Below, one piece after another: positions 48,964 through 64,000 of a DNA stretch of 64,000 bases. Every line of letters starts with the position of its first letter. Positions within the stretch are counted from its first letter, which is position 1. The notes beneath the pieces are model-generated. The model saw nothing but the letters and a program-made list of their open reading frames with translations, was not told the DNA's origin and did not search any database. The stretch comes from Leeuwenhoekiella nanhaiensis (GTDB lineage: Bacteria > Bacteroidota > Bacteroidia > Flavobacteriales > Flavobacteriaceae). Where the stretch lies: positions 434,001 to 498,000 of the forward strand of contig NZ_KZ319289.1 in NCBI RefSeq assembly GCF_002744755.1. The letters run 5' to 3'. The position numbers and the translations under genes are program-made.

Positions 48964-51165
48964 TCAGTTTGCTTTTTCTGCTTTTTGCTGAAGTTTTAAA
49001 ACCTCCTTTTCGCTAAGTTGTTTTGCATAGCGATCATAATAATTAAAAGCGCCAGATTCCGTTTTTACATAATAATAGGTTTGATCGCCTATTACCAAAT
49101 ACCCGGCCTTTTTGGTCATTTGTTCCGGGCTAAGGGGTGAGCTTTTTTGGGGATTTTCAGATTTCGCCGGAATCAAGGCTTCCTCCTGAGGCTCCCCCGC
49201 AATAATCACTTTGATACTCTTAACACCGTAATCCCGAAGTGCTGATTTCACATCGGTGATGATCCCCATTTTAACCGACGGGTCTACCGTAATCTTTACG
49301 TCCATCACTTTGGCGCGTTCAGCTTTAGTATAGTCTGAATTATACCGGCTTAAGGCTTTTTCAATACGGTCTGAGTCTATCATTTTAGAGTTGATGAAAA
49401 CCTGATGGTTTTTATCAATTTCGATATAAATGTCTTCAAAAACCTGAATGATTTCAGACTCTTCAGGAACGGGTTTGTTTAAGGTTTTATTTGATTTTAT
49501 TGTTTTTGGTTCAGCTGGAGCCGGTGGGGGGATTAATTGTTGTGAAGGATTGATTTTAAACAATTCTGTCTTTTTAAATTCTTTATTTAGCTCTTTCAGA
49601 AACTCATCCATTCCCACTTGTGATTTTACATCAAGGATATAGTTTCTGTAGTCTTCAGGCGACCAGTCTGCCGTCATTGCATTAAGATCTTCTGCAAGTT
49701 TATCTTTTGAACTGGACTGGCTTATTAAGCTTACGCGATTATTTACTACATATACTGTAATAATCTTAGGAGCTTCTTTGATCTTCTTATAGGTATAGCC
49801 CTCTGAGCTGGTCATATGGTTTCCATCAACTGTAAAATAAATATCCTTATCGCCATATGTGAAATAAAATCCCTTAGACGTTAAGACTGGGTAATACCTA
49901 TTTGTACCGAATTGATCTTTTATTGTCCAGATGGTGCCTCCGTTTTCTGAACGGATATAGAATTCCTGATCAACATCAACACCTTCCCAATCCCCGGCGA
50001 AAATTTTTCCGTAGGTATTTTCAGGGCGAATAAAGCTTTTGTCATTTAAAAGAAGTTCATTTTTTTCAGGTTTATAATTTATAAAAATCTGCATTTTACC
50101 AGCAGAAAGTGATTTGTTTTTCTTAGTTACTGCATAAAGGTTTTCACTTTCCTGACGCAACTCAAAGGTGTCTTTATAAGACTTCATCCAAAGCTTTTTA
50201 TCCTGCTCGTATATTGTTAGTTGTGCGAACTCACTTTTGCGGTCAACCCATTTTCCCAATATAGAAAGAGACTCTTTTTGTACTACCGGCTTTGCGACAA
50301 TCTCCTGATTGAAACAGTAGAAGCATAGGGCCAGCACAGGTACAAAAAGCACCAGTCGCAGAAGCATTTTTTTGACCGAGCGGGTTTTTGATAACATAAG
50401 AATTCGTTTTTTGGTTAATGAATAATTGATCGGGCTTGATAACGCGGTGTGATGAGCACCACCCGAATAGGTAAATAAAAGATTGGTATAGTTTTCAGTA
50501 GTTGTATTTTGAGCCAGGGCAGCACGGTCTGCGAGAAATTCGTGATTCAAAGCAATGCTTCTTTTTAAAAAGACCAGCAGCGGATTAAACCAGAAAATTA
50601 CCTGTAGAAATTCGACTGCCAGAATATCCCAGGTGTGCTTTTGCGTGACGTGTGCCTGCTCGTGTGCCAGGATTTCCGGGGCGATGGAGTTGGTTTTAAA
50701 TTCGGTTTTAGGCAGGAAAATGAACTTAAGAAACGAATGCGGAATAACCTTTCCGGCCAATAGGACGTTGATATGGGTTTTCGCCTCTACCTTTTCGTTG
50801 CAGGTTATTTTGTGACGAAGCCTGATCAAATTCCGCAGAAACCGAAACCCAAAAAGCAAAACACCGGCAACATAAACGATTCCTAAACCAACCAGCAGCC
50901 AGTTTGTAGGTTCTGCAACCGGTTCTGCAACCGGAGTTTCGGTAAAAACAGCCGGCTCAAAAACTACGGACTCAGTAACCACCGTTTGTGGTTCTACTTC
51001 AACCGTATAGCTCAGTGTGATCAGCGGTAATGCTAGAGCCAAAATCAGACTTCCCAACAGGTAAATCCGCTTAAAGTGGTGCGCAGCCGTTTGTTCTAAG
51101 GCGATTTTATAAAATCCCCAAAGCACCAGCAGGCACAAGATTGATTTGATGAGGTAGGCTGTCAT
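48964..51165 (-). CDS. BlaR1-like M56 metallopeptidase with ExbD-like C-terminal domain (second of pair)
   Basis: A 733-residue protein. Membrane segments at the N-terminus, near residues 35-54 and 88-112, and near 275-292 surround the cytoplasmic M56 peptidase domain with HEQAH at His168-His172 and the later NHEFLADRAAL. The periplasmic part differs from the neighbour: a beta-rich region (about 300-455, GKWVDRKSEFAQLTIYEQ), one copy of a module ending in LIPPPAPAEPK (about 465-560), and an ExbD/TolR-like segment (HQVFINSKMI, VKITVDPSVKMGIITDVKSA, about 580-660). BlaR1 family members sense a periplasmic signal and cleave BlaI. Its first 290 residues are almost identical to those of the upstream protein. 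Confidence 0.87.
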   Translation of the reverse strand: MTAYLIKSILCLLVLWGFYKIALEQTAAHHFKRIYLLGSLILALALPLITLSYTVEVEPQTVVTESVVFEPAVFTETPVAEPVAEPTNWLLVGLGIVYVAGVLLFGFRFLRNLIRLRHKITCNEKVEAKTHINVLLAGKVIPHSFLKFIFLPKTEFKTNSIAPEILAHEQAHVTQKHTWDILAVEFLQVIFWFNPLLVFLKRSIALNHEFLADRAALAQNTTTENYTNLLFTYSGGAHHTALSSPINYSLTKKRILMLSKTRSVKKMLLRLVLFVPVLALCFYCFNQEIVAKPVVQKESLSILGKWVDRKSEFAQLTIYEQDKKLWMKSYKDTFELRQESENLYAVTKKNKSLSAGKMQIFINYKPEKNELLLNDKSFIRPENTYGKIFAGDWEGVDVDQEFYIRSENGGTIWTIKDQFGTNRYYPVLTSKGFYFTYGDKDIYFTVDGNHMTSSEGYTYKKIKEAPKIITVYVVNNRVSLISQSSSKDKLAEDLNAMTADWSPEDYRNYILDVKSQVGMDEFLKELNKEFKKTELFKINPSQQLIPPPAPAEPKTIKSNKTLNKPVPEESEIIQVFEDIYIEIDKNHQVFINSKMIDSDRIEKALSRYNSDYTKAERAKVMDVKITVDPSVKMGIITDVKSALRDYGVKSIKVIIAGEPQEEALIPAKSENPQKSSPLSPEQMTKKAGYLVIGDQTYYYVKTESGAFNYYDRYAKQLSEKEVLKLQQKAEKAN

Positions 51166-51204
51166 ACCTGATTATTTTTAATTTAAAAGCTATGCTGAAG
51201 TTTG

Positions 51205-53697
51205 TTATTCTTTGTCCTTTATAATTAATGCCTTTCTACCTTTAAAACTAGTCATTAGGATATTATAGTTATCACTTTCTTTCATTAACGATTTAGCTTG
51301 GGCGGAAGAGATCTTTTTATCGTTATAATAAATGTTATCCTTTGCTAGGTCTACCATTTCCAGTGCTGAGGGTGGCGGCGGCGGCGGTGGAGGAGTTCCT
51401 GCTTTTGGTGCAGCAGGCGCTGGTGGCGGAGGTGGAATCAAGCCATGTGCCGGTTGCGCCTGATATAAATCAGTTTTTTTGTATTCGCGTTCTACAGCTG
51501 CTCTTAGTTTAGGATCAGCATTGCTGGTAGATTTACCAATAAGCACCCTACAGTTCTCGAGTTCATCCTGAGTCCATCCGCGAGTTATCGCATTCATTTC
51601 TTTTACGAAGTCCTCAACATTAACTTTCTTAGAGTTCAAAAAAATTTGATCCTCTTCAATCTTAAAAGAAATCACTTTCCCATCCTGCTCTAAACGTGTT
51701 ATCAATTCTTCTTCAGAAAGCTTAGTTTCGCTTGCTGGCGCCGGTGGCGGAGGAGTTCCTGCATTTGGAGCACCAGGTACTGGCGGTGGTGGCGGTAGTA
51801 TTAAACCTTTAGGGTTTGCCTTATATAAGGCAGTTGTCTCAAAGGCGCTTTGCAATTTTTGCCAAATTTTTTCGGCAGGATCTGTGGTTCTCACATGGAT
51901 ACTGTAATTGCGTTTATCACTGAAAGACCAATTTTTACTAAGTGCATCGAGATCCTTTGCAAAATTTTCAATGCTTGTCTCCTGGCCATTAACCGAAACC
52001 TGCGCACCCATTACTATGATATTCAGTACTTTTTCATTTTGAGCGAGATATGTTTTTACTTCCTCAAAAGATGGCGGATTCTGCATCTTTTTATGACTTT
52101 CATAGTATTCAGATGTCATTAAATCAACCTGATAATAATGCGAGCCGTAATTTTTTGCATTTTTCTCAAGCTTGCTTATCGAATAATAGCTGTAATCATT
52201 AGAACTTTTCAAGGAAGCATTGGTAATACGTTTCCCGTCAACCCAAATGCCGTATTGCGAAGCGTCTTTCCATTCAGACAATTGCGATGCTGTTGGCGAT
52301 TTTTTTTCTAAAATGCGATAAGTAGGATTTTTTGAAATTGCATTAAGATCAGCTTGTGTAATTACTTTCTTTTTACCGTCCTGTAGATATATATAGGCTT
52401 TAGGATTAATAGATTTTTCAGCTCCACTGGTTTCATTTTCATAATAGTCACCCTTTTTTAATGTCGATGAATCAATTCTGTTATGATTTTCAAAATAATC
52501 AGGAGTCATTAGTTTTACGACGTAGCCTTTTACAGATTTTGTAAGTCTGTTATCAACTGCGCTTACTTGATACCAAACAAAATCATCTTCGGTTTTATCG
52601 TTTAAAAAGTCACTGGAAACTCTTTCAGCATCAACCCATATTTCATATTTATCGGAGTCTTTCCAGGATTTAAGAAGTGCATCTGCGGGTGGGTGTTTTG
52701 CTAAGAACATAGGTAGCCTATCAGCTTTTTCAAGCTCCTCTTTGATGTTTTTATGAAGTGCTGCATCTGGATCTGCGACTACAGGAACTTCTTTCTGCTG
52801 TAATGATTCTTTGTAAACCGGCTTCGCCAAAATTTCCTCATTAAAGAAATAAACACATAAAGCGAGAACGGGCACAAAGAGTGCAAGACGGGTGGCCAGT
52901 TTTTTGACCGAGCGGGTTTTTGATAACATAAGAATTCGTTTTTTAGTTAATGAATAATTAATCGGGCTTGATAATGCGGTGTGATGAGCACCACCCGAAT
53001 AGGTAAATAAAAGATCAATATAATTTTCAGTAGTGGTATTTTGAGTCAGTGCGGCGCGGTCTGCGAGAAATTCATGATTCAAAGCAATGCTTCTCTTCAA
53101 AAAAACAAGTAGCGGATTAAACCAGAAAATCACCTGTAAAAATTCCACCGCCAGAATATCCCAACTGTGTTTTTGCGTGACGTGTGCCTGCTCGTGCGCC
53201 AGAATTTCCGGGGCGATGGAGTTGGCTTTAAATTCGGATTTAGGCAGGAAAATGAACTTAAGAAACGAATGCGGAATAACCTTTCCGGCGAGCAACACGT
53301 TGATGTGGGATTTCGCCTGCACCTTTTCGTTACGGGTTATTTTCTTTCGAAGCCTGATCAAATTCCGCAGAAACCGAAATCCAAAAAGCAGAACACCAGC
53401 ACCATAAACGATTCCTAAACCAACAAGCAGCCAGTTTGTAGGTTCTGCGACCGGTGCAGCAACCGGAGCTTCGGTAAAGGCAACCGGTTCAAAAACTGCG
53501 GACTCAGCAACCACCGTTTGCGGTTCTACTTCAACGGTATAGCTAAACGTAATCAGCGGTAAAGTGAGAGCCAAAACCAAACTTCCCAGGAGGTAAACAC
53601 GCTTAAAGTGATGCGCAGCCGTTTGCTCTAAGGCGATTTTATAAAACCCCCAAAGCACCAGCAGGCATAAGATTGATTTGATGAGGTAGGCGAGCAT
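51205..53697 (-). CDS. BlaR1-like M56 metallopeptidase with repeated periplasmic modules (first of pair)
   Basis: An 830-residue protein. Residues 1-290 are the M56 membrane-peptidase part (HEQAH at 168-172, NHEFLADRAAL). The periplasmic part is modular: two copies of a 75-80-residue unit with WKDxxxYxIWVD (Trp345 and Trp476) and LMTxxYxExH, then two copies of a unit of about 100 residues (starting near 556 and 676) with a short VxVN or FLNSKKV strand, FxKxxxAxxxxW, and KKTxLYxAxP, each ending in a poly-proline tract. A final 50-residue tail contains IYYNDKKISSAQAKSL. The ATG at 53697 overlaps the BlaI stop by one base (TGATG). The signal sensed is unknown. Confidence 0.87.
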   Translation of the reverse strand: MLAYLIKSILCLLVLWGFYKIALEQTAAHHFKRVYLLGSLVLALTLPLITFSYTVEVEPQTVVAESAVFEPVAFTEAPVAAPVAEPTNWLLVGLGIVYGAGVLLFGFRFLRNLIRLRKKITRNEKVQAKSHINVLLAGKVIPHSFLKFIFLPKSEFKANSIAPEILAHEQAHVTQKHSWDILAVEFLQVIFWFNPLLVFLKRSIALNHEFLADRAALTQNTTTENYIDLLFTYSGGAHHTALSSPINYSLTKKRILMLSKTRSVKKLATRLALFVPVLALCVYFFNEEILAKPVYKESLQQKEVPVVADPDAALHKNIKEELEKADRLPMFLAKHPPADALLKSWKDSDKYEIWVDAERVSSDFLNDKTEDDFVWYQVSAVDNRLTKSVKGYVVKLMTPDYFENHNRIDSSTLKKGDYYENETSGAEKSINPKAYIYLQDGKKKVITQADLNAISKNPTYRILEKKSPTASQLSEWKDASQYGIWVDGKRITNASLKSSNDYSYYSISKLEKNAKNYGSHYYQVDLMTSEYYESHKKMQNPPSFEEVKTYLAQNEKVLNIIVMGAQVSVNGQETSIENFAKDLDALSKNWSFSDKRNYSIHVRTTDPAEKIWQKLQSAFETTALYKANPKGLILPPPPPVPGAPNAGTPPPPAPASETKLSEEELITRLEQDGKVISFKIEEDQIFLNSKKVNVEDFVKEMNAITRGWTQDELENCRVLIGKSTSNADPKLRAAVEREYKKTDLYQAQPAHGLIPPPPPAPAAPKAGTPPPPPPPPSALEMVDLAKDNIYYNDKKISSAQAKSLMKESDNYNILMTSFKGRKALIIKDKE

Positions 53698-54065
53698 CAC
53701 TTTTTAGATTTTAGGCGTTCGTCAATCAGTTTTTTAAGATCCTCCAGTTCCTGCGGGGACAAATCGGTTTCCTTCGTAAAAAAGGAAGCAAACTGCGCGG
53801 CAGAGTCGTTAAAGAAATTTTTGATCATTCCATTCACCTGCCTGGCAAAATAATCTTTCTTCTTGACCAGGGGGAAATACTCCCGCGACCGCCCGTATTG
53901 CACATAGTCCACAAAATTCTTGTCCTGCATGCGCTTTAACAAAGTGGCGACGGTAGTCGTTGCAGGCCGTGGTTCGGGATACGCCTCAATGAGGTCTTTC
54001 ATAAAGGCTTTTTCCTGTTTCCACAAGATTTGCATCAATTGTTCTTCGGCATTGGAGAGGTTCAT
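53697..54065 (-). CDS. BlaI/MecI/CopY-family repressor
   Basis: A 122-residue winged-helix repressor: MNLSNAEEQLMQILWKQEKAFMKDLIEAYPEP, then RPATTTVATLLKRMQDKNFVDYVQYGRSREYFPL is the DNA-binding region, and the helical C-terminal half dimerises. The family binds TACA/TGTA dyads and is inactivated by cleavage by a BlaR1-type M56 peptidase, two of which are encoded directly downstream. Three matching dyads lie directly before its start, so the unit is very likely autoregulated. No beta-lactamase gene is present in the window. Confidence 0.92.
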   Translation of the reverse strand: MNLSNAEEQLMQILWKQEKAFMKDLIEAYPEPRPATTTVATLLKRMQDKNFVDYVQYGRSREYFPLVKKKDYFARQVNGMIKNFFNDSAAQFASFFTKETDLSPQELEDLKKLIDERLKSKK

Positions 54066-56245: not shown

Positions 56246-57643
56246 TTAGTTTTCTGCAGACTTTAGTTTAGTGAACTCGTGGTAAAAATGCGGAATGGTC
56301 TCGATGCCTTTGAGAAAATTCCAAACCCCAAAATGCTCGTTTGGCGAGTGAATGGCGTCGCTATCCAGACCAAAGCCCATCAGGATGGTCTTGCTGTTGA
56401 GTTCGCGCTCAAATAAAGCCACAATTGGAATACTGCCGCCACTGCGCTGCGGGATGGGTGTTTTGCCAAAAGTCTTCTCATAAGCCGCCTCTGCCGCCTG
56501 GTAGCCGATGTTGTCAATGGGCGTTACGTAAGGCTCGCCGCCGTGATGCGGTTTTACCTTGACGCGTACGCCTTTTGGGGCAATGCTTTCAAAATGAGTT
56601 TTGAACAGCTGCGTGATTTCTTTCCAGTCCTGATGCGGTACCAGACGCATACTGATCTTGGCGTAAGCCTTACTGGCGATTACGGTTTTGGCTCCCTCGC
56701 CGGTGTAGCCGCCCCAGATGCCGTTGACATCGAGGGTAGGGCGTATGCTGTTGCGCTCGTTTGTGGTGTAACCGGCTTCGCCATAAACCGCGTCGATATC
56801 GAGCGCTTTCTGATAGTTTTCAAGTGAAAACGGGGCTTCGGCCATTTTTTCGCGTTCGGCGGCGGTGAGTTCATCAACCTGATCGTAAAATCCGGGAATG
56901 GTGATGTGGTTGTTTTCGTCGTGCAGTGAGGCGATCATTTTGGTAAGCACGTTGATGGGATTGGCTACCGCACCGCCGTAAAGGCCGCTGTGGAGATCGC
57001 GGTTGGGGCCGGTGACTTCGACTTCCACATAGCTGAGGCCGCGCAGGCCGGTGGTGATGCTGGGCACGTCTTTGGCGATCATACCGGTGTCTGAAATCAG
57101 GATTACGTCGTTAGCGAGCTTTGCCTGATTTCGGGAAACAAACCAACCCAGATTTTCGCTACCCACTTCTTCTTCGCCTTCGATCATAAACTTGACGTTG
57201 CAGGGCAGGTCGTCGTTTTGGGTCATATACTCAAGCGCTTTGACGTGCATATACATCTGGCCCTTGTCGTCGCATGCGCCGCGGGCAAAAATGGCACCGT
57301 CAGGATGCCCTTCTGTTTTTTTGATAACGGGTTCAAAAGGTGCGCTTTCCCACAAGTCTAGCGGGTCTGGCGGTTGCACGTCATAATGCCCGTAAACCAA
57401 AACGGTGGGCAGATTTTTATCTTTTATAATCTCGCCATATACGATGGGATATCCCGGAGTTTCGCAGATTTCAACTTTGGCACAACCGGCTTCTTTAAGG
57501 CGTTCGGCCACGGCATCGGCGGTGTTGAATACGTCGTCTTTATAGGCTTTATCGGCACTGATAGATGGAATTTTAAGCAGCTCGATGAGTTCGTCGAGAA
57601 AGCGTTTTTGATGGGTGTCTATGTATTTTTTAATGTCTTTCAT
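56246..57643 (-). CDS. M20-family dipeptidase
   Basis: A 465-residue zinc peptidase. Metal ligands and catalytic residues are visible as VYGHYDVQPP (His, Asp), ARGACDDKGQ (Asp), IEGEEEVGSE (Glu pair) and ISDTGM (Asp), with the dimerisation or lid domain from about 200 to 330 and DAIHSPNEHFG near the end. It fits the ArgE/DapE/carnosinase dipeptidase branch and probably finishes breakdown of peptides in the cytoplasm; no signal peptide is seen. It is a single-gene unit. Confidence 0.93.
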   Translation of the reverse strand: MKDIKKYIDTHQKRFLDELIELLKIPSISADKAYKDDVFNTADAVAERLKEAGCAKVEICETPGYPIVYGEIIKDKNLPTVLVYGHYDVQPPDPLDLWESAPFEPVIKKTEGHPDGAIFARGACDDKGQMYMHVKALEYMTQNDDLPCNVKFMIEGEEEVGSENLGWFVSRNQAKLANDVILISDTGMIAKDVPSITTGLRGLSYVEVEVTGPNRDLHSGLYGGAVANPINVLTKMIASLHDENNHITIPGFYDQVDELTAAEREKMAEAPFSLENYQKALDIDAVYGEAGYTTNERNSIRPTLDVNGIWGGYTGEGAKTVIASKAYAKISMRLVPHQDWKEITQLFKTHFESIAPKGVRVKVKPHHGGEPYVTPIDNIGYQAAEAAYEKTFGKTPIPQRSGGSIPIVALFERELNSKTILMGFGLDSDAIHSPNEHFGVWNFLKGIETIPHFYHEFTKLKSAEN

Positions 57644-57897
57644 CTATTTAAATTGTATCAGGAACTTGGGGTTCCGTTATTTAATTTGGTGTGATAACCT
57701 TTATTTACCGGGTGCCCATTATGGGCTTTCATAAGTAAAACTTGAGTTTGGGTAAAAATACGGATTGACTTTCAGATTTGTACTTTTGAAGGGGTGGAAA
57801 GGCTGAGGAAGAACGGGTAAAAAGCGGAGGGATTAAAATTGCTTTCCGGGATTGAAAAAATATTTTGAAAAAGCATTTTCAAATTCAAAATCTTTCC

Positions 57898-57905
57898 TAT
57901 ATTTG
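57898..57905 (+). promoter_or_regulatory. -7 element of the tRNA-Leu promoter
   Basis: TATATTTG matches TAnnTTTG exactly, 68 bases before the first tRNA-Leu sequence. The upstream -33 is not clear. Between it and the tRNA is a perfect 9-base inverted repeat, TTTTTAACG (57936-57944) and CGTTAAAAA (57958-57966). The gap from 57644 to 57897 shows no gene. Confidence 0.6.
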
Positions 57906-57972
57906 CACTCGCATTTTTACAGATAAGGATGCAAGTTTTTAACGGGAGTCCTAAGTACGTTAAAAATAGTAT

Positions 57973-58012
57973 GCAGGCGTGGTGGAATTGGTAGACACGC
58001 TAGACTTAGGAT
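57973..58012 (+). pseudogene. Truncated tRNA-Leu (5' half)
   Basis: GCAGGCGTGGTGGAATTGG, then TAGACACGCTAGACTTAGGAT, is the first 40 bases of a tRNA-Leu: acceptor 5' strand, D-arm, anticodon stem 5' strand CTAGA and the anticodon loop CTTAGGA with anticodon TAG. The 3' anticodon strand should read TCTAG but the sequence goes into unrelated A-rich bases. Its acceptor (GCAGGCG) differs from the intact copy (GCGGGTG), so it is not just a misread of that copy. The break falls at the end of the anticodon loop. Confidence 0.82.
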
Positions 58013-58046
58013 TAAACCAAATAAAAAGTGTTAAATTGCACTTAAT

Positions 58047-58128
58047 GCGGGTGTGGTGGAATTGGTAGACACGTCAGACTTAGGATCTGATGCCGCAAGG
58101 TGTGGGGGTTCGAGTCCCTTCACCCGCA
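58047..58128 (+). tRNA. tRNA-Leu (anticodon UAG)
   Basis: A complete 82-base class II tRNA. The acceptor GCGGGTG pairs with CACCCGC, the anticodon stem is TCAGA/TCTGA around loop CTTAGGA, the variable arm is short and the T-arm holds GGTTCGAGTCC. Discriminator base A at 58128; CCA is not encoded. A strong terminator follows immediately. Confidence 0.95.
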
Positions 58129-58130
58129 CA

Positions 58131-58160
58131 AAAGCCGAAGATTTATCTTCGGCTTTTTTT
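58131..58160 (+). terminator. Rho-independent terminator after tRNA-Leu
   Basis: AAAGCCGAAG pairs with CTTCGGCTTT across a 6-base loop, followed by a run of seven Ts. Confidence 0.92.
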
Positions 58161-58479
58161 ATTGAAAAAACTAAGCGAAAAAATGGACAGGTACAACATA
58201 GGTACAACATTTTGTCTTTTTTTGGATGCTAATAAGAAATGACATCATTTGTGATTTTTAGATATTAATTGCAATGAAAAAGTCTTTTCTTTAGAAAAGT
58301 CTAGTGATTTTTATCATTCCATTCAAGAAATTACAGTTTTAAAGTACTTTGCTATTATCCCTAAAAAAAGTATGAATATGGGACAAATTCTTACCTCAGA
58401 CTTCTGCTTCCTCTAGAGATATGTATTAAAATTAAAAGCATTGGTAAGAAGTTTTTTATCATAAAATATTCCCGAAAGT
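58161..58479. other. Non-coding left edge of the accessory region
   Basis: No convincing gene is seen. The stretch is A/T-rich and holds a direct repeat GGTACAACAT at 58190-58199 and 58201-58210. A 19-codon frame at 58184 (MDRYNIGTTFCLFLDANKK) resembles the opening of Bacteroidota integrases but stops at once; it may be an integrase remnant or chance. Confidence 0.45.
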
Positions 58480-58626
58480 TAAACTCGTAAAATACTTCCA
58501 TCAAAAGACTACGGCATAAAGCCATCGCTTCTGCCCCTACTCATTTATTCCGTTTCCTTTTGAGCCAAGATTTTATCTTCCGTTTGGTTTCTGCTCAAAT
58601 ATTGTTTAATCAAAAATTTGAGTATT
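58480..58626 (+). promoter_or_regulatory. Duplicated 150-base leader, copy 1
   Basis: This leader before the ParB-like gene aligns end to end with 60530-60675 before the small protein gene. Two blocks are identical in both copies: the 29 bases ending at 58526 (CATCAAAAGACTACGGCATA and following) and the 22 or so bases ending at 58565 (TTATTCCGTTTCCTTTTGAG). A conserved inverted repeat TTGAGC...GCTCAA (58561 to about 58597) and a small GGC-ATAAA-GCC hairpin (58513-58523) are kept in both. Distance to the ATG is conserved within one base. Confidence 0.75.
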
Positions 58627-60414
58627 ATGACAACAAAAGCGAGTACCACAAAAAAGCGCAGTAGAGCAAAAGTAACTGCCAAAAAAGAAGTGAATGGAAA
58701 GAAATCATCCGTACTTCAAATTCAGAACTTACCATTGGGCAAAATCAAGACTGACCCAGAACAACCAAGAAAGACTTTCAACAAAAACGCATTACAGCAA
58801 CTTTCTGAGAGTATCGAAGAGCACGGTGTATTGCAACCAATCACGGTAAGGCAATTAAACGCCCATTATATCATCGTGATGGGCGAACGCCGATATCGTG
58901 CAAGCAAGCTGGCAGGAAAAAAGACCATACCCAGTATCGTGAGGACTTATGAGAACAATGATGTATTGGAAGTTCAAATCATCGAGAACTTACAACGGCA
59001 GGATGTTGAGCCTACCGAAGAAGCTGAGTCCATTGCCTATCTCAGCGAGAAATATACGCCCACAGAAATTGCGAAACGATTGGGTAGAACGGACAACTTT
59101 ATCAGACAACGCCTAAAATTGGCAGGTTTGATAGAAGGTTTTAAGCACTTTGTCCGCATTGGCAAAATGACAATATCATTGGGTGTAGGTGTCGCACTTT
59201 TTGAACCAGAGGAACAACAGATGATGTTGGAAACGATGGGCGAAGATTTTAATGCCCATCAGATAAACAGGATGATTAAAGACCAAACCTATGACTTGGA
59301 AAAAGCATCTTTTGATGTAACCGATAAGAAGTTAGTGCCGAAAGCAGGGTCTTGTTTAGAATGTCCATTTAATGCGGCCAATCAAGGCAATTTGTTCGGC
59401 GAGGGTAAAATGGTCTGTACAAAATCAGCTTGTTTTGAAACAAAGAAAAACAAATCGTTTTTGAACCTGATTAAGAAATCCAAAAAAGAGAACATCCTTC
59501 TGATTCCTGAAATACGACAGTACTGGGCAGATGACGAAAACAATCAGCTCATTATTTCACAGTTGGAAAAAAATGGCTTGAAGGTCTATCTACTGGATGA
59601 TGTTGAAATAATCGAAGAACCAATTAAGCCAACAATAGAGGCCATCAAAATAGAATATCAACATTACGATTATTCTGAAGATGAACTAAAAGCTGAGCTT
59701 AAGGAAGCAATTCAGAACTATGAAGAAGAATTGAAAAATTACAATTCAGCAACTGACAATGGATTTGTAAACGGCATCGTGTTCCATCCTGAGACCTACC
59801 AGAACAAAGAAGTGTTTGTCAAGGTAATCGAGAAATCAAAAGATGAAGTAACTGATTATTCAGCACCATTGGCCAATAGAAAAATGGCAGATTGTACACC
59901 TGAAGAACAAATCGTGAAAATCAACGAAAGGGAAATCCGCAAGAAGCACATCGAGAACAACAAGCAGTTTGAAGAAGTTGTCCAGATGATTCGTGAGACC
60001 AAATACATCGAAACGAAGAAGACACTTTCCACAGACGAAATGGTGGCATTCTCGATATCGCTTTTTGAAAATAATGTGGATTATATGAGCCAACAAAAGT
60101 ATTTCTCGAAGTTCTTGGGCGACACTTCCAAGATGACCAAAGTTGAAATGGTCGAGAATTTCAAGAAGAAATTCAAAAAGGAAATCTTTCACAAGCTGAT
60201 ACGCTATAAAATTACAAAGCAAGTGCATTTTGGCGAGAGCAATCACGTGAATAACCTAACGAATATTTCATTCTACAATGCGATGCAAGGATATTACAAA
60301 TCCAAGATTGACGGCATTGAGAAGGAATATGCCGAAAAACGAAACAAGCGTGAAGCACGTTTGAAAGAGCGCATCACAGTTCTTGAAAAGAAAATTAAGG
60401 AACTGAACGATTAG
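58627..60414 (+). CDS. ParB-like DNA-binding protein with cysteine-rich insert
   Basis: A 595-residue protein. Residues about 30-120 are a ParB N-terminal (CTPase-type) domain with DPEQPRKTF, GVLQPITVR and GERRYRAS (86-93), and IIENLQRQDVEPTEEAES; a helix-turn-helix (TPTEIAKRLGRTDNFIRQRLKL) follows. Cys243, Cys246, Cys264 and Cys269 form a C-x2-C-x17-C-x4-C cluster, probably a zinc site. The C-terminal 300 residues are helical with coiled-coil stretches. No ParA gene is adjacent. The ATG at 58627 is preferred over a TTG three codons earlier because of the duplicated leader. Likely a regulator or accessory factor of a mobile element, not a chromosome segregation ParB. Confidence 0.85.
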   Translation: MTTKASTTKKRSRAKVTAKKEVNGKKSSVLQIQNLPLGKIKTDPEQPRKTFNKNALQQLSESIEEHGVLQPITVRQLNAHYIIVMGERRYRASKLAGKKTIPSIVRTYENNDVLEVQIIENLQRQDVEPTEEAESIAYLSEKYTPTEIAKRLGRTDNFIRQRLKLAGLIEGFKHFVRIGKMTISLGVGVALFEPEEQQMMLETMGEDFNAHQINRMIKDQTYDLEKASFDVTDKKLVPKAGSCLECPFNAANQGNLFGEGKMVCTKSACFETKKNKSFLNLIKKSKKENILLIPEIRQYWADDENNQLIISQLEKNGLKVYLLDDVEIIEEPIKPTIEAIKIEYQHYDYSEDELKAELKEAIQNYEEELKNYNSATDNGFVNGIVFHPETYQNKEVFVKVIEKSKDEVTDYSAPLANRKMADCTPEEQIVKINEREIRKKHIENNKQFEEVVQMIRETKYIETKKTLSTDEMVAFSISLFENNVDYMSQQKYFSKFLGDTSKMTKVEMVENFKKKFKKEIFHKLIRYKITKQVHFGESNHVNNLTNISFYNAMQGYYKSKIDGIEKEYAEKRNKREARLKERITVLEKKIKELND

Positions 60415-60426
60415 CTTTTGTTGTTT

Positions 60427-60466
60427 GAAGAAGGGTCGGCATTCGTGCTGGCCCTTCTTCTTTTTT
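60427..60466 (+). terminator. Terminator after the ParB-like gene
   Basis: GAAGAAGGGTC (60427-60437) pairs with GGCCCTTCTTC (60450-60460), with one G-U pair, followed by a T-run to 60466. It begins 13 bases after the stop codon. Confidence 0.9.
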
Positions 60467-60529
60467 ATGATAGTGCTTAAAAATGTATTTACGAGGAAGG
60501 GGATTATCAATCAATAGTTAGCGCAAAGG

Positions 60530-60675
60530 TAAACTCGTAAAATGCACCCATCAAAAGACTACGGCATAAAGCCATCTCACCGTCCTACGCCTATTTATTC
60601 CGTTTCCTTTTGAGCTGTGATTTTAGCTTCCGTTTGGGTACTGCTCAAGTATTGTTTAACTAAAATTTCAACATT
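60530..60675 (+). promoter_or_regulatory. Duplicated 150-base leader, copy 2
   Basis: A direct repeat of 58480-58626, collinear with one indel. It lies between the terminator at 60466 and the 53-residue gene, so it must contain that gene's promoter and any leader structure. Its TTGAGC...GCTCAA inverted repeat and the GGC-ATAAA-GCC hairpin are conserved. Confidence 0.75.
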
Positions 60676-60837
60676 ATGAAACGAGTATCAAGTAAATCCA
60701 CAATCACATTACAAGAAGTTGAAGACCACTACCAATCGAGCCGTGAAAATTACGACATCGAAAGCGCTGAAAGCCACTTGGCTTATTACAGAGAAAGGCA
60801 TCCAGAATATTACGCTCTGTTATTACAAAATGTTTAA
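60676..60837 (+). CDS. Small 53-residue accessory protein
   Basis: MKRVSSKSTITLQEVEDHY opens a 53-residue, Glu- and Tyr-rich protein ending YYALLLQNV. It has no recognisable domain. It is supported as a real gene by the leader duplicated from the ParB-like gene, whose conserved spacing places an ATG exactly here, and by the 17-base gap to the DUF932-like gene, with which it is probably cotranscribed. Confidence 0.7.
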   Translation: MKRVSSKSTITLQEVEDHYQSSRENYDIESAESHLAYYRERHPEYYALLLQNV

Positions 60838-60854
60838 TCTAAAATTCAAAAGCT

Positions 60855-61691
60855 ATGTATTTACAAAATTTGCAACAGGATGAAATCTTCGTTCCATCAG
60901 AAATGAAATCCTTAAAAAGCCTGACCCAGATGGAATCCCGAAGAGGGCTTGAAAATGCCATTATCTCAAATGGCAAAATCGTAAATGTTGTATCAAACAG
61001 CTACGGACACATTCCAAATCAATTGTTCTTCAAGAAAGCTGAAGAAATGCTGACCGATGCAGGACTCAACTATCATAAACGAACTATCAACAAAAATGAC
61101 CGGTCGTTCATTACCGATTTTATCATCGATGACAAAAGCCAGTTTACGGTTAAGAATGATAAGGACTTGATACTACCAATGCTTCGGTTCAAGAACTCGT
61201 ATGATGGTAGCGAAAAGACCTCTGGTCATTTTGGGTTTTATAGAAAAGTATGTTCAAATGGCCTGCACGTTTCACAGGCTGAAATTGAGTTTTCCATCAA
61301 ACATAGTAAGAACAATACCGACCTTATAATGCCAAGGTTGAACAATCTATTCGAGAAATTTCTGGACAATGAGTTCTATACCATTACCAAGAAATTCGAC
61401 AAGATGAAGGAATTTAAAATCATCGACGCGCAGGAATTTGTAAAAGCAGTTCTCGATAAGACTAAGCTCTTTAGATACGAATGTAGCGATAAGAACAGTG
61501 ACCCTTCAAAAAAGTCCCGTGAAGTCATTGAGATATTGAACTACGAAGCCTTGTTGCTTAATGAAGAGCCTAATCTCTGGTTGGGTTACAATGCGTTCAA
61601 TGCAGTATTGCACCATACGTTGAAAAAAACCTTTGGCCAACAGGAACGATTGGATAAAAAGTTGTTCGATGAAGTTTATGCAATGTCATAG
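60855..61691 (+). CDS. DUF932-like (phage/plasmid-related) protein
   Basis: A 278-residue protein. The central block MLRFKNSYDGSEKTSGHFGFYRKVCSNGL, given here by its RFKNSYDGS and RxVCSNGL parts, matches the DUF932 pattern found in proteins of plasmids, phages and integrative elements. Role unknown; relatives are co-carried with ParB-like and anti-restriction genes. It follows the small gene and precedes the AbiE pair, and codon usage is A/T-rich like its neighbours. Confidence 0.78.
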   Translation: MYLQNLQQDEIFVPSEMKSLKSLTQMESRRGLENAIISNGKIVNVVSNSYGHIPNQLFFKKAEEMLTDAGLNYHKRTINKNDRSFITDFIIDDKSQFTVKNDKDLILPMLRFKNSYDGSEKTSGHFGFYRKVCSNGLHVSQAEIEFSIKHSKNNTDLIMPRLNNLFEKFLDNEFYTITKKFDKMKEFKIIDAQEFVKAVLDKTKLFRYECSDKNSDPSKKSREVIEILNYEALLLNEEPNLWLGYNAFNAVLHHTLKKTFGQQERLDKKLFDEVYAMS

Positions 61692-61758
61692 TATAGCATC
61701 AATAAAGGTTCATCCAGTACCTTAAACTGGATTTTTCTACTCACGTAAAATTGTATAA

Positions 61759-61822
61759 TTTCAAATATTTACCACTTTATTTACATAGTGGCAATAATTA
61801 GTTTTCAAATATTCGCCACTTT
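61759..61822. promoter_or_regulatory. Repeat operators upstream of the AbiE pair
   Basis: TTTCAAATATTTACCACTTT (61759-61778) and TTTCAAATATTCGCCACTTT (61803-61822) are direct repeats with 18 of 20 bases alike and starts 44 bases apart. The first also forms an inverted repeat CCACT-N10-AGTGG (61772-61791). The second overlaps the expected -33 region of the toxin-antitoxin promoter. AbiEi antitoxins repress their own promoters through repeats, so these are candidate binding sites. Confidence 0.68.
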
Positions 61823-61826
61823 TTTG

Positions 61827-61834
61827 TATTTTTG
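61827..61834 (+). promoter_or_regulatory. -7 element of the AbiE promoter
   Basis: TATTTTTG matches TAnnTTTG, 23 bases before the ATG at 61857 and five bases after the second operator repeat. Confidence 0.6.
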
Positions 61835-61856
61835 GCAAAATTTTGATATAAAGGTT

Positions 61857-62624
61857 ATGCCAAAGATTTTAGAAAATAAACTTATAGAAGCATTTAAGGA
61901 ACGTGGTTCTTTTGATAGGGAGGAACTATTTCAGTTCTATCTGGACTTTGAACCAGATTTGAAGGAAAGTACCTTTAGTTGGCGAATTTATGACCTGAAG
62001 AAAAAGGACATCATCAAGACTATTGGTCGTGGTGTTTATGTTATATCCTATAAACCGAAGTATAAACCGGTACTGTCTGATTACGTTCTAAAAATAGTAC
62101 GAAAGACCAATGAAAGGTTTGAAGAAATCCAATATGCTATATGGGAGAACCAATGGCTCAATGAATTCACACAGCATCAAGTGTCCAACCAAATGATAGT
62201 TGTGGAAGTAGAGAAGGAATTTACCGAATCAGTCTATTACTATCTAAATGATTCCTTGAAAATGAATTTTTTCTTGAATCCCGATGACAAGGAAATTGAG
62301 TTCTACATTTCCGAGAGTGCTGTTCCTGTGGTCATAAAGCGTCTTGTTACAAGAGCACCCATAAATAAGCTGAAAGACAAAAAAATTGCAGTTCCCGTCG
62401 CCTCACTTGAAAAAATAATGGTGGATTTATTTGCAGATGAAAACCTGTTCCATTTTTACCAAGGCTCTGAACTCATAAACATTTATGAAAAGATACTTGA
62501 GCGATACAATATTAATTTCACAAAACTATTCAGTTATGCGAAAAGACGAAAGAAAGAACTGGAAATCAAGCAATTTATGAATAATCACATACCGAATATT
62601 TTAGAGGACATCATCAATGATTAA
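61857..62624 (+). CDS. AbiEi-like antitoxin of a type IV toxin-antitoxin system
   Basis: A 255-residue protein starting MPKILENKLIEAFKERG. The N-terminal 70 residues look like a winged helix (FDREELFQFYL, STFSWRIYDLKKKDIIKTIGRGVYVI), the usual AbiEi DNA-binding part, and the C-terminal part contains RLVTRAPINKLKDKKIAVPVASLEKIMVDLFAD, a typical antitoxin region given here by its key blocks. It overlaps the toxin gene by eight bases. In type IV systems the antitoxin counteracts the toxin without direct complex and represses the operon. An upstream in-frame start at 61788 would place the promoter inside the gene and is rejected. Confidence 0.83.
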   Translation: MPKILENKLIEAFKERGSFDREELFQFYLDFEPDLKESTFSWRIYDLKKKDIIKTIGRGVYVISYKPKYKPVLSDYVLKIVRKTNERFEEIQYAIWENQWLNEFTQHQVSNQMIVVEVEKEFTESVYYYLNDSLKMNFFLNPDDKEIEFYISESAVPVVIKRLVTRAPINKLKDKKIAVPVASLEKIMVDLFADENLFHFYQGSELINIYEKILERYNINFTKLFSYAKRRKKELEIKQFMNNHIPNILEDIIND

Positions 62625-63720
62625 AAACAAAAGCTTCACAAAAGAATGGTTAGATACTTTCCGAGCAAAAAAAGAACATAAAGGCATTAATGTGACCATT
62701 TTGGAAAAAATGGTTCACGCATTTTCTTTGCTAGAACATCTAAAGATAGAAGGACTTGATTTTGTCTTTAAAGGCGGTACGTCGCTTGTTCTTTTACTTG
62801 AAGAAGGCAATCGGTTTTCAATCGATATCGATATCATATCAAGTACAGAGCGTGAACCGTTGGAAAAAATTCTTGATGCGGTTGTTGCCAATTCACATTT
62901 TAAAAGCCACACTTTGAATGAACGCCGAAGTTATAAAGAAGGCGTTCCAAAGGCACATTATACTTTTGAATTTGATTCGGTTTACAACCCAAACGTTCCT
63001 GGGACCATTCTGTTGGATATACTTTTTGACAGTCCACATTATCCAGAACTTATAGAATCTTCCGTTGAGATTCCTTGGCTATCGGTTGATGAGCCTATCA
63101 TATCAATTGCCACACCTTCGGTAAATTCCATCTGTGGCGATAAGCTTACTGCTTTTGCACCAGAGACCATCGGTATTCCATATTATAAGGGCGACCAGTT
63201 GTTTACAATGGAAATCTGTAAGCAGTTGTTCGATTTAGGAAAGTTGTTTGAAAACATTACAGATATGTCTATTGTTAAGGCTAGTTTTTCCGCTTTCGCG
63301 AAAGCAGAACTATCCTATCGCAGTTCCGATAAAGATTTCGGCAAAAGAAACCTCAAAGAAACAGATGTGCTTTGGGATAGCATAGACACCTGTGCCATCA
63401 TCGCCAAAAGAGAACGCAATCCAACTGCTGAAACGAAAAAGAAGTTTGAGGGCTTAAACCGTGGCATACGCAGTTTTGGAGGTGCTTTTCTTATGACGGG
63501 TAATTTCAGAATCGAGGAAGCTCTTGCAGCTTCGGCCAGAGTAGCTTATTTGAATGCCATCTTGTTACAAGATGAGATAAAAGAAATCGAATATTACGAA
63601 GGACAAGACATAAACGAACTTAACGTTGAAAAAGAGGATTGGGTATTCTTGAACAAATTAAAACGACAACCGGATAAGTCCATATTTTATTATTGGTATA
63701 AGGCGGTGGAACTATTGTAA
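62617..63720 (+). CDS. AbiEii-like nucleotidyltransferase toxin
   Basis: A 367-residue protein of the AbiEii/AbiGii family (DNA polymerase beta-like nucleotidyltransferase). Motif I reads FKGGTSL (Gly53, Gly54, Thr55, Ser56) and is followed by RFSIDIDI (Arg66, Ser68, Asp70, Asp72), the metal-binding pair; GDKLTAFAP (residues about 170-178) is a further conserved block. AbiE systems cause bacteriostasis and abort phage infection; MenT-type relatives modify tRNA 3' ends. It begins within the end of the antitoxin gene. The Ser in motif I where other members have Ala does not affect the call. Confidence 0.88.
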   Translation: MIKNKSFTKEWLDTFRAKKEHKGINVTILEKMVHAFSLLEHLKIEGLDFVFKGGTSLVLLLEEGNRFSIDIDIISSTEREPLEKILDAVVANSHFKSHTLNERRSYKEGVPKAHYTFEFDSVYNPNVPGTILLDILFDSPHYPELIESSVEIPWLSVDEPIISIATPSVNSICGDKLTAFAPETIGIPYYKGDQLFTMEICKQLFDLGKLFENITDMSIVKASFSAFAKAELSYRSSDKDFGKRNLKETDVLWDSIDTCAIIAKRERNPTAETKKKFEGLNRGIRSFGGAFLMTGNFRIEEALAASARVAYLNAILLQDEIKEIEYYEGQDINELNVEKEDWVFLNKLKRQPDKSIFYYWYKAVELL

Positions 63721-63730
63721 ATAAACGTGA

Positions 63731-64000
63731 ATGGAATTTAAGTATATAATAGAAATCTGTGTCGCAATTGACATCGCAATCTTGGGTATTGCCTATCCGA
63801 TAATCGTGGATAAAATATCCAATATAGGCAATAAGTTTTCATCAAACTATCTGGCCAATGCTTTTGAAAATGAATTTCCGCAGACAAAACTCTTTGGAAT
63901 ATTTCCAGGAAGGTCAAGAAGAATAACGGTATTTGAATGGGTTTTGTTTTTAACAATAGGCTCATTTATATTCTTAATACTAGACATTGAACCTCTTTTT
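63731..64000 (+). CDS. Membrane protein, truncated by window end
   Basis: An ATG ten bases after the toxin stop opens a frame that stays open to the window edge (90 codons). It has two hydrophobic segments (about residues 5-25, ending IIVDKI, and 70-87, VLFLTIGSFIFLILDI) and no recognised domain. It may be cotranscribed with the toxin or be an independent gene of the mobile element. Confidence 0.6.
   Translation, partial: MEFKYIIEICVAIDIAILGIAYPIIVDKISNIGNKFSSNYLANAFENEFPQTKLFGIFPGRSRRITVFEWVLFLTIGSFIFLILDIEPLF

Follow-up and report, generated by a model that had tools for sequence, protein, structure and literature searches.

The locus examined here raises the question of why two different genes of one mobile island should be preceded by nearly the same stretch of non-coding DNA, and what such a shared leader might do. 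The window, by which the whole 64,000-nt stretch analysed is meant (Leeuwenhoekiella nanhaiensis, contig NZ_KZ319289.1, positions 434,001 to 498,000, forward strand), carries close to its right end a ParB-like gene and a gene for a 53-residue protein, and a sequence-only reading of the two leaders had proposed a shared regulatory element or structured RNA, perhaps bound by the ParB-like protein, which would synchronise the genes of the element.

The strongest direct repeat found in the region by a repeat search joins 58475-58618 to 60525-60668 (144 nt, 83% identity, ungapped), which is far above chance, given that the runner-up two-copy family unrelated to tRNA covers just 44 nt at 70%. A MAFFT alignment of the two leaders contains a single 1-nt indel within the block, identical blocks of 29 nt (CCATCAAAAGACTACGGCATAAAGCCATC) and 23 nt (ATTTATTCCGTTTCCTTTTGAGC) and, in both leaders, the TTGAGC...GCTCAA arms, with a near-constant spacing to the ATGs at 58627 and 60676. 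The sequence-only reading had thus described the end-to-end alignment with one indel, the inverted repeat and the constant distance correctly, and its second identical block, put at about 22 bases, is 23 nt long. The conserved unit begins at about 58456, slightly ahead of the start first proposed. The features of the locus are collected in Table 1.

Table 1. Features of the two hairpin elements and their neighbourhood (window coordinates)
Feature	Position	Strand	Basis
tRNA-Leu	58047..58129	+	tRNA match
Hairpin element, copy 1	58456..58626	-	covariance model R1 match 58456-58622, 188.5 bits; repeat D1
Outer "downstream duplex" arm AATATT, pairs with AATATT 58598-58603	58465..58470		helix 1
-7 box, copy 1, TAACTTTC(G), one mismatch to TAnnTTTG	58474..58481	-	sequence reading; consensus from PMC9723704
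Spacer stem, gene-distal arm, TAAAATACTT, pairs with AAGATTTTA 58567-58575	58488..58497		helix 3
-33-like TTTG, copy 1, within stem, 20 nt from -7 box	58502..58505	-	sequence reading; alignment A3
Hairpin tip, distal side, ACGGCATAAA, pairs with TTTATTCCGT 58545-58554	58511..58520		helix 4; core conserved across Bacteroidota
ParB-like gene, 595 aa, ParB_N + HTH_ParB	58627..60414	+	domain search; comparison with F
Hairpin element, copy 2	60504..60675	-	R1 match 60504-60672, 172.8 bits
-7 box, copy 2, TACCTTTG, exact TAnnTTTG	60524..60531	-	sequence reading
-33-like TTTG, copy 2, 20 nt from -7 box	60552..60555	-	sequence reading
53-aa gene, homologues follow element in many genomes	60676..60837	+	domain search; genome comparison
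DUF932 gene	60855..61691	+	domain search; comparison with F

Past the tRNA-Leu gene, the probable attachment site, the island opens with copy 1 and the ParB-like gene. The 53-aa protein has no Pfam match, and an SSB gene of the same genome lies just past the window (C3:502740, + strand). Some other features of the neighbourhood may be recorded here. The 5' half of the tRNA-Leu recurs as a partial copy of 42 nt with 90% identity (57971-58012), which stands 74 nt before the intact gene and is probably a relic of an earlier integration or of tRNA-array decay. The DUF932 gene is followed in the same orientation by a DUF6577 and AbiEii-type nucleotidyltransferase gene pair (61863-63720), which resembles a type IV toxin-antitoxin or abortive-infection pair. 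On the minus strand, at 48964-53700, two adjacent and clearly duplicated genes encode large membrane proteins of BlaR1/M56-like type (733 and 831 aa), accompanied by a small BlaI-like regulator gene at 53697-54065; these names come from reading the sequence, not from a search.

The element is by no means confined to this locus. Of 199 Flavobacteriaceae genomes, 41 carry the element, which is present in triplicate on several islands, and the L. nanhaiensis genome itself contains a further pair on a different contig (C18), which sets aside a local duplication found only here. The covariance-model search that had been proposed was run with R1, built from an alignment (A3) of 37 non-redundant copies in minus-strand orientation, and returned relatives outside the Flavobacteriaceae; four of these lie immediately before RadC-like genes and one before an SSB gene. 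The core pattern used for the wider search (CGGCATAAA-N10-40-TTTATTCCGTT) occurs in at least 118 stretches of GTDB genomes, mostly, among the matches listed, in genera of Flavobacteriaceae, Sphingobacteriaceae, Chitinophagaceae and Cytophagales, and in 13 stretches of IMG/VR, which places the core in orders of Bacteroidota beyond that of the Flavobacteriaceae. A DNA similarity search of PLSDB plasmids and INPHARED phages gave no match to the element; in an iterated nhmmer search of this self-complementary sequence, one strand was counted per site. One subfamily (L036 5194, L045 3766, L050 4105) has a rewritten hairpin tip and stem (CAAATTTG...CAAATTTTC) and keeps the outer parts and the -7 box. 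Core-pattern matches at the same position in four Lentisphaerae contigs from one MAG (L168, L182, L190, L203) are probably one repeated sequence or an assembly artefact rather than the element.

What is conserved in these copies is above all a fold. RNAalifold alone recovers a long stem from A3, with double changes supporting 14 of 20 pairs, and the fuller structure is an imperfect hairpin of 37 pairs in which 93.8% of the cells are paired, as opposed to 40-48% when the arms are slid, a control somewhat flattering to the structure because it was drawn from the same sequences. Double changes occur at 15 of the 37 pairs, equalled in none of 500 shuffles, and the doubly changed cells number 74 against 20.8 +/- 4.2 in the shuffles. 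Helix 3, the spacer stem, is paired in 96% of the cells with double changes at 7 of its 10 pairs, and helix 1, the outer AATATT duplex, in 91%. For example, TAAAATaCTT/AAGATTTTA is replaced by TAAAATaCAC/GTGATTTTA and by CCCTAAAAAAT/ATTTTTAGGGG, and TCAAAAG/CTTTTGA by GGAAAAGG/CCTTTCC. The small hairpin first pointed out, GGCATAAAGCC, is not this covarying structure, given that the supported fold is long-range and brings ACGG-CATAAA together with TTTATT-CCGT and further pairs outward. Single-copy folding z-scores are modest (mean -2.0), so that the structural case rests on the covariation. With the repeat, the covariation, the other genomes and an Rfam scan of 57000-64000 in which only the tRNA was significant, the view of the leaders as a shared, conserved, structured and non-coding regulatory element of several mobile-element genes, with no match to any Rfam family, is supported.

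The strand that folds is of particular importance. Read on the minus strand, the wobbles of A3 comprise 49 G.T and 17 A.C (a single column pair supplies 28 of the 49 G.T), and DNA folding gives the minus strand the lower minimum free energy in 36 of 37 sequences. Both results point to the minus strand, not to a plus-strand RNA, as the one that folds, and the evolutionarily supported, stable hairpin is accordingly a property of one strand.

This same strand carries promoter boxes. The gene-distal arm reads TTTG-N20-TAnnTTTG exactly in copy 2 and TTTG-N20-TAACTTTC in copy 1, where structure and boxes lie on the strand opposite to the ParB-like gene, and the TTTG is taken to be a -33 element, as in Bacteroidota promoters. 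The sigma-A -7 box of Flavobacterium psychrophilum is TAnnTTTG at -12 to -5, with TAnnTTGY as a variant class, and both forms occur in the elements, the variants matching sigma-A and SM5 of that species (PMC9723704). Among the matches listed, 84 of 126 distinct elements across Bacteroidota have the -7 box at the expected place on the minus strand, as against two with the box on the opposite strand and a count of 12.4 for shuffles; the exact box at the tested distance is absent in 42, and the -33 box is weak or absent in some subfamilies. The clearest group is formed by 25 elements in which 43-57 nt separate the box from the core. Base-pair probabilities there leave the A-n-n-T-T of the box unpaired (P 0.14-0.37), with paired flanks on either side (0.7-0.95). 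The opening is weaker in the 53 elements in which this separation is 36-41 nt. From the tip outward, the element consists of the tip hairpin, a stem with the spacer and the -33-like box, the -7-box loop, an outer duplex with the predicted start, a short leader and the ATG, so that the boxes of a host promoter are rebuilt in the folded strand and oriented toward the gene, the -33 box less clearly than the -7. Ahead of the SSB gene of genome G113, a large fold exists with no clear box. A small-peptide reading, by which both copies are open in one frame (...PSKDYGIKPS... to a shared TGA), was rejected because copy 1 has no start codon and the loop lengths of the copies differ by non-multiples of three.

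The genes that follow the element are of a recognisable kind. Among the matches listed, 110 distinct first genes were scanned, and Pfam assigned them to RadC (29), ParB_N (16), DUF6943 (8), DUF932 (7), SSB (3), DUF6876 (3), ArdC (2), C5 methylase (C5-MTase, 2) and DUF4942 (1), in agreement with NCBIfam, while the distance from core to ATG peaks at 69-75 nt. These include the types typical of leading regions, i.e., SSB, anti-restriction, methylase, ParB-like and DUF932 genes. An uncharacterised family of about 77 aa (MQKHPRISAGSQSG... / MHKQLRIITSRR...) is repeatedly the first gene after the element (L142, L150, L157, L162, L167, L206, L239, L259). This family, DUF6943, DUF6876 and the 53-aa family are candidate establishment or anti-defence proteins.

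The synteny is equally regular. A gene for a relaxase-like DUF5712 protein lies downstream, on the same strand as the served gene, for 57 of 57 elements, and the order element-SSB-DUF5712 is kept in 54 of 56. Neighbouring copies are co-oriented in all 28 pairs, by which an invertible promoter, with no opposite orientation among them, was rejected. TraN is on the gene-ward side in all 27 islands that have it within 60 kb, on the opposite strand in 22. In the integrative and conjugative element (ICE) of G113, one strand carries, in order, ParB, the 53-aa gene, DUF932, cargo, SSB, DUF6876, an inverted-repeat-rich gap, a MobC-like gene, DUF5712 and the coupling protein, and the tra genes follow on the other strand. 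The gap, at about G113:C1 2542670-2543110, is where the nic site is predicted to lie. The DUF5712 gene between the MobC-like and coupling-protein genes (L084 8548-9576; G113:C1:2543547-2544578) encodes HIHIIVSRKD. This sequence of the DUF5712 proteins resembles the metal-binding motif of relaxases, and DUF5712, a family to which Pfam assigns no function, is probably the relaxase of these ICEs. PF03432 and TrwC relaxases, tried as landmarks, do not represent that relaxase, and DUF5712 was the better choice. An oriT usually adjoins the mob genes. If it does so here, the minus strand would be the T-strand and everything to the left of the oriT the leading region, judging from the position of the relaxase and the analogy with F.

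Taken together, the elements are most probably single-stranded DNA (ssDNA) promoters of leading-region genes, with a mechanism like that of Frpo and no sequence homology to it. When the ICE is transferred by conjugation, its minus strand would enter the recipient single-stranded and fold into the long imperfect hairpin. The gene-distal arm would act as the non-template strand, with the -33-like box in the stem and an internal loop that keeps the sigma-A -7 box (TAnnTTTG or TAnnTTGY) open, so as to mimic an open promoter with the short outer duplex just downstream. The RNA polymerase of the host would start at about 58599 in copy 1 and 60650 in copy 2, as placed by the -12 to -5 position of the box, use the gene-proximal arm as template and pass through a leader of about 27 nt into the gene. 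In this way the recipient would produce the ParB-like and 53-aa/DUF932 proteins, along with others of the leading region, ahead of any complementary strand. Second-strand synthesis would then turn the promoter off, because sigma-A boxes facing the gene are essentially lacking in the double-stranded form. The suggestion that the leaders synchronise element genes may be kept in the sense of early expression during transfer, not in that of control by ParB. Binding of the ParB-like protein to the leader finds no support in the distribution of the elements, which across Bacteroidota precede RadC, SSB, ArdC and methylase genes as well.

In the F plasmid, Frpo1 and Frpo2 are required for the early expression of downstream leading-region genes in recipients and drive ygeA-ygeB and ssb (PMC9849209), and genes for SSBs, methylases and anti-restriction proteins are reportedly overrepresented on the T-strand within leading regions (PMC11541004). 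As in Frpo1/Frpo2 (ssi), an ssDNA hairpin stands before genes that would belong to the leading region, the boxes are rebuilt in the folded strand, the corresponding strand folds, and the copies are repeated and co-oriented. The F leading region has methylase, antirestriction, SSB, ParB-like, PsiB and DUF932 genes in one orientation, and DUF932, ParB-like and SSB genes are shared by both systems in the same geometry; the ParB-like and DUF932 proteins of F are, by their identity to those of the window (26% over 174 aa and 27% over 113 aa), distant homologues. On the other hand, a search of F 48000-67500 with R1 gave nothing up to an E value of 5, and thus shows no sequence homology to Frpo/ssi. 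The box is TATAAT in F and the Bacteroidota-type TAnnTTTG here, the element of about 170 nt is shorter than the F hairpins, and it lies on Bacteroidota ICEs, where its promoter function is predicted.

The physical requirements of an ssDNA promoter are identical to those of a single-strand origin (ssi), at which RNA polymerase on the hairpin would mainly prime synthesis of the complementary strand, with the position of the genes being secondary. Frpo itself reportedly serves transcription as well as primer RNA synthesis, as a 1997 title by Masai and Arai has it. At the ssoA-type origins of rolling-circle plasmids and ICEs, RNA polymerase recognises folded ssDNA and makes a short primer, with no known link to gene starts. 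The Bacteroidota elements share the recognition of folded ssDNA and differ in having several copies per island, most often 69-75 nt before the ATG of a protective or leading-type gene, neither of which an origin needs. Origin function as the main role is therefore unlikely, although a priming role may coexist with that of promoter.

A structured 5'-UTR RNA that would begin at an upstream promoter, span the element and control the translation or transcription of each gene is quite unlikely. The long covarying hairpin directly ahead of genes, at a near-fixed distance from the ATG, is what Rfam cis-regulatory RNA leaders also display, but here fold and promoter box are on the opposite strand, the box at the same place across the phylum. 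Sigma-A boxes facing the gene in double-stranded DNA (dsDNA) are essentially none within 300 nt upstream, within the element, or between core and gene, the most conserved wobble (column pair 73-130) would be a C.A mismatch on the plus strand in 28 of 37 sequences, and no Rfam model matches. The RNA leader of the sequence-only reading is thus probably wrong.

Very unlikely is a site acting in dsDNA, either an operator palindrome for a regulator encoded by the element, such as the ParB-like protein, or a leftward promoter of antisense RNA. Proteins do bind perfect or imperfect palindromes, and the -7 box, together with the -33-like box at a distance of 20 nt, would also read leftward in dsDNA and could double as such a promoter. 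Both readings would nevertheless leave unexplained why 37 asymmetric pairs, those of the outer duplex among them, covary, why the loop is open where the box lies and why the wobbles are biased to one strand, and the two copies of the window have different left neighbours (att/tRNA and the 3' end of parB). A mobile or recombination hairpin (attC-like cassette site or IS200-like end) moving genes in and out would likewise be recognised as ssDNA and adjoin different genes, but is hardly conceivable for copies that stand 5' of genes at a near-fixed distance in one orientation relative to the relaxase (57 of 57), with no association with an integron integrase or transposase noticed in the region read.

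Promoters of ssDNA are so far known mainly from the Escherichia coli F plasmid and its relatives. Samuel et al. 2024 sought Frpo-like candidates through the TTGACA/TATAAT consensus and through BLAST matches to Frpo sequences already known, and such a search would miss the Bacteroidota elements for this very reason; their text makes no mention of Bacteroidota (PMC11541004). No report of ssDNA promoters in Bacteroidota was found in the open-access papers searched. The 31.7 kb read of the Arenibacter plasmid pSMS7, with its RadC, methylase, SSB and ParB genes, had no R1 match. Ahead of RadC and N6-methylase genes of this plasmid (L263), before 11088 and 11983, minus-strand hairpins unrelated in sequence present the -7 boxes TACCTTTG and TAACTTTG, each as a six-base open loop between a paired T and G, in two of the six leaders looked at. 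They are likely a second family of ssDNA promoters, and the same open-loop position in unrelated hairpins suggests that the design with the -7 box in a loop is general. In the ParB leaders of Bacteroides plasmids, a comparable hairpin was not found in the 260 nt tested.

Given this, it seems reasonably probable that the Bacteroidota have a phylum-wide class of ssDNA promoters of their own, in which the sigma-A box TAnnTTTG in a pre-melted loop drives the genes by which ICEs and plasmids counter defence and become established, with at least one sequence-unrelated hairpin type of like geometry (that of pSMS7), so that transcription of leading regions from ssDNA would be ancient or repeatedly invented. 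If this is true, transcription from the incoming single strand would be a general strategy of conjugation, fitted to the sigma factor of each phylum, and not a speciality of enterobacterial plasmids. The hairpin-opened -7 box should, moreover, bypass promoter melting by the unusual sigma-A holoenzyme of the Bacteroidota. The element would also provide a motif for finding leading regions in this phylum, and with them candidate anti-defence genes, such as those of the 53-aa family, DUF932, RadC, DUF6943 and DUF6876.
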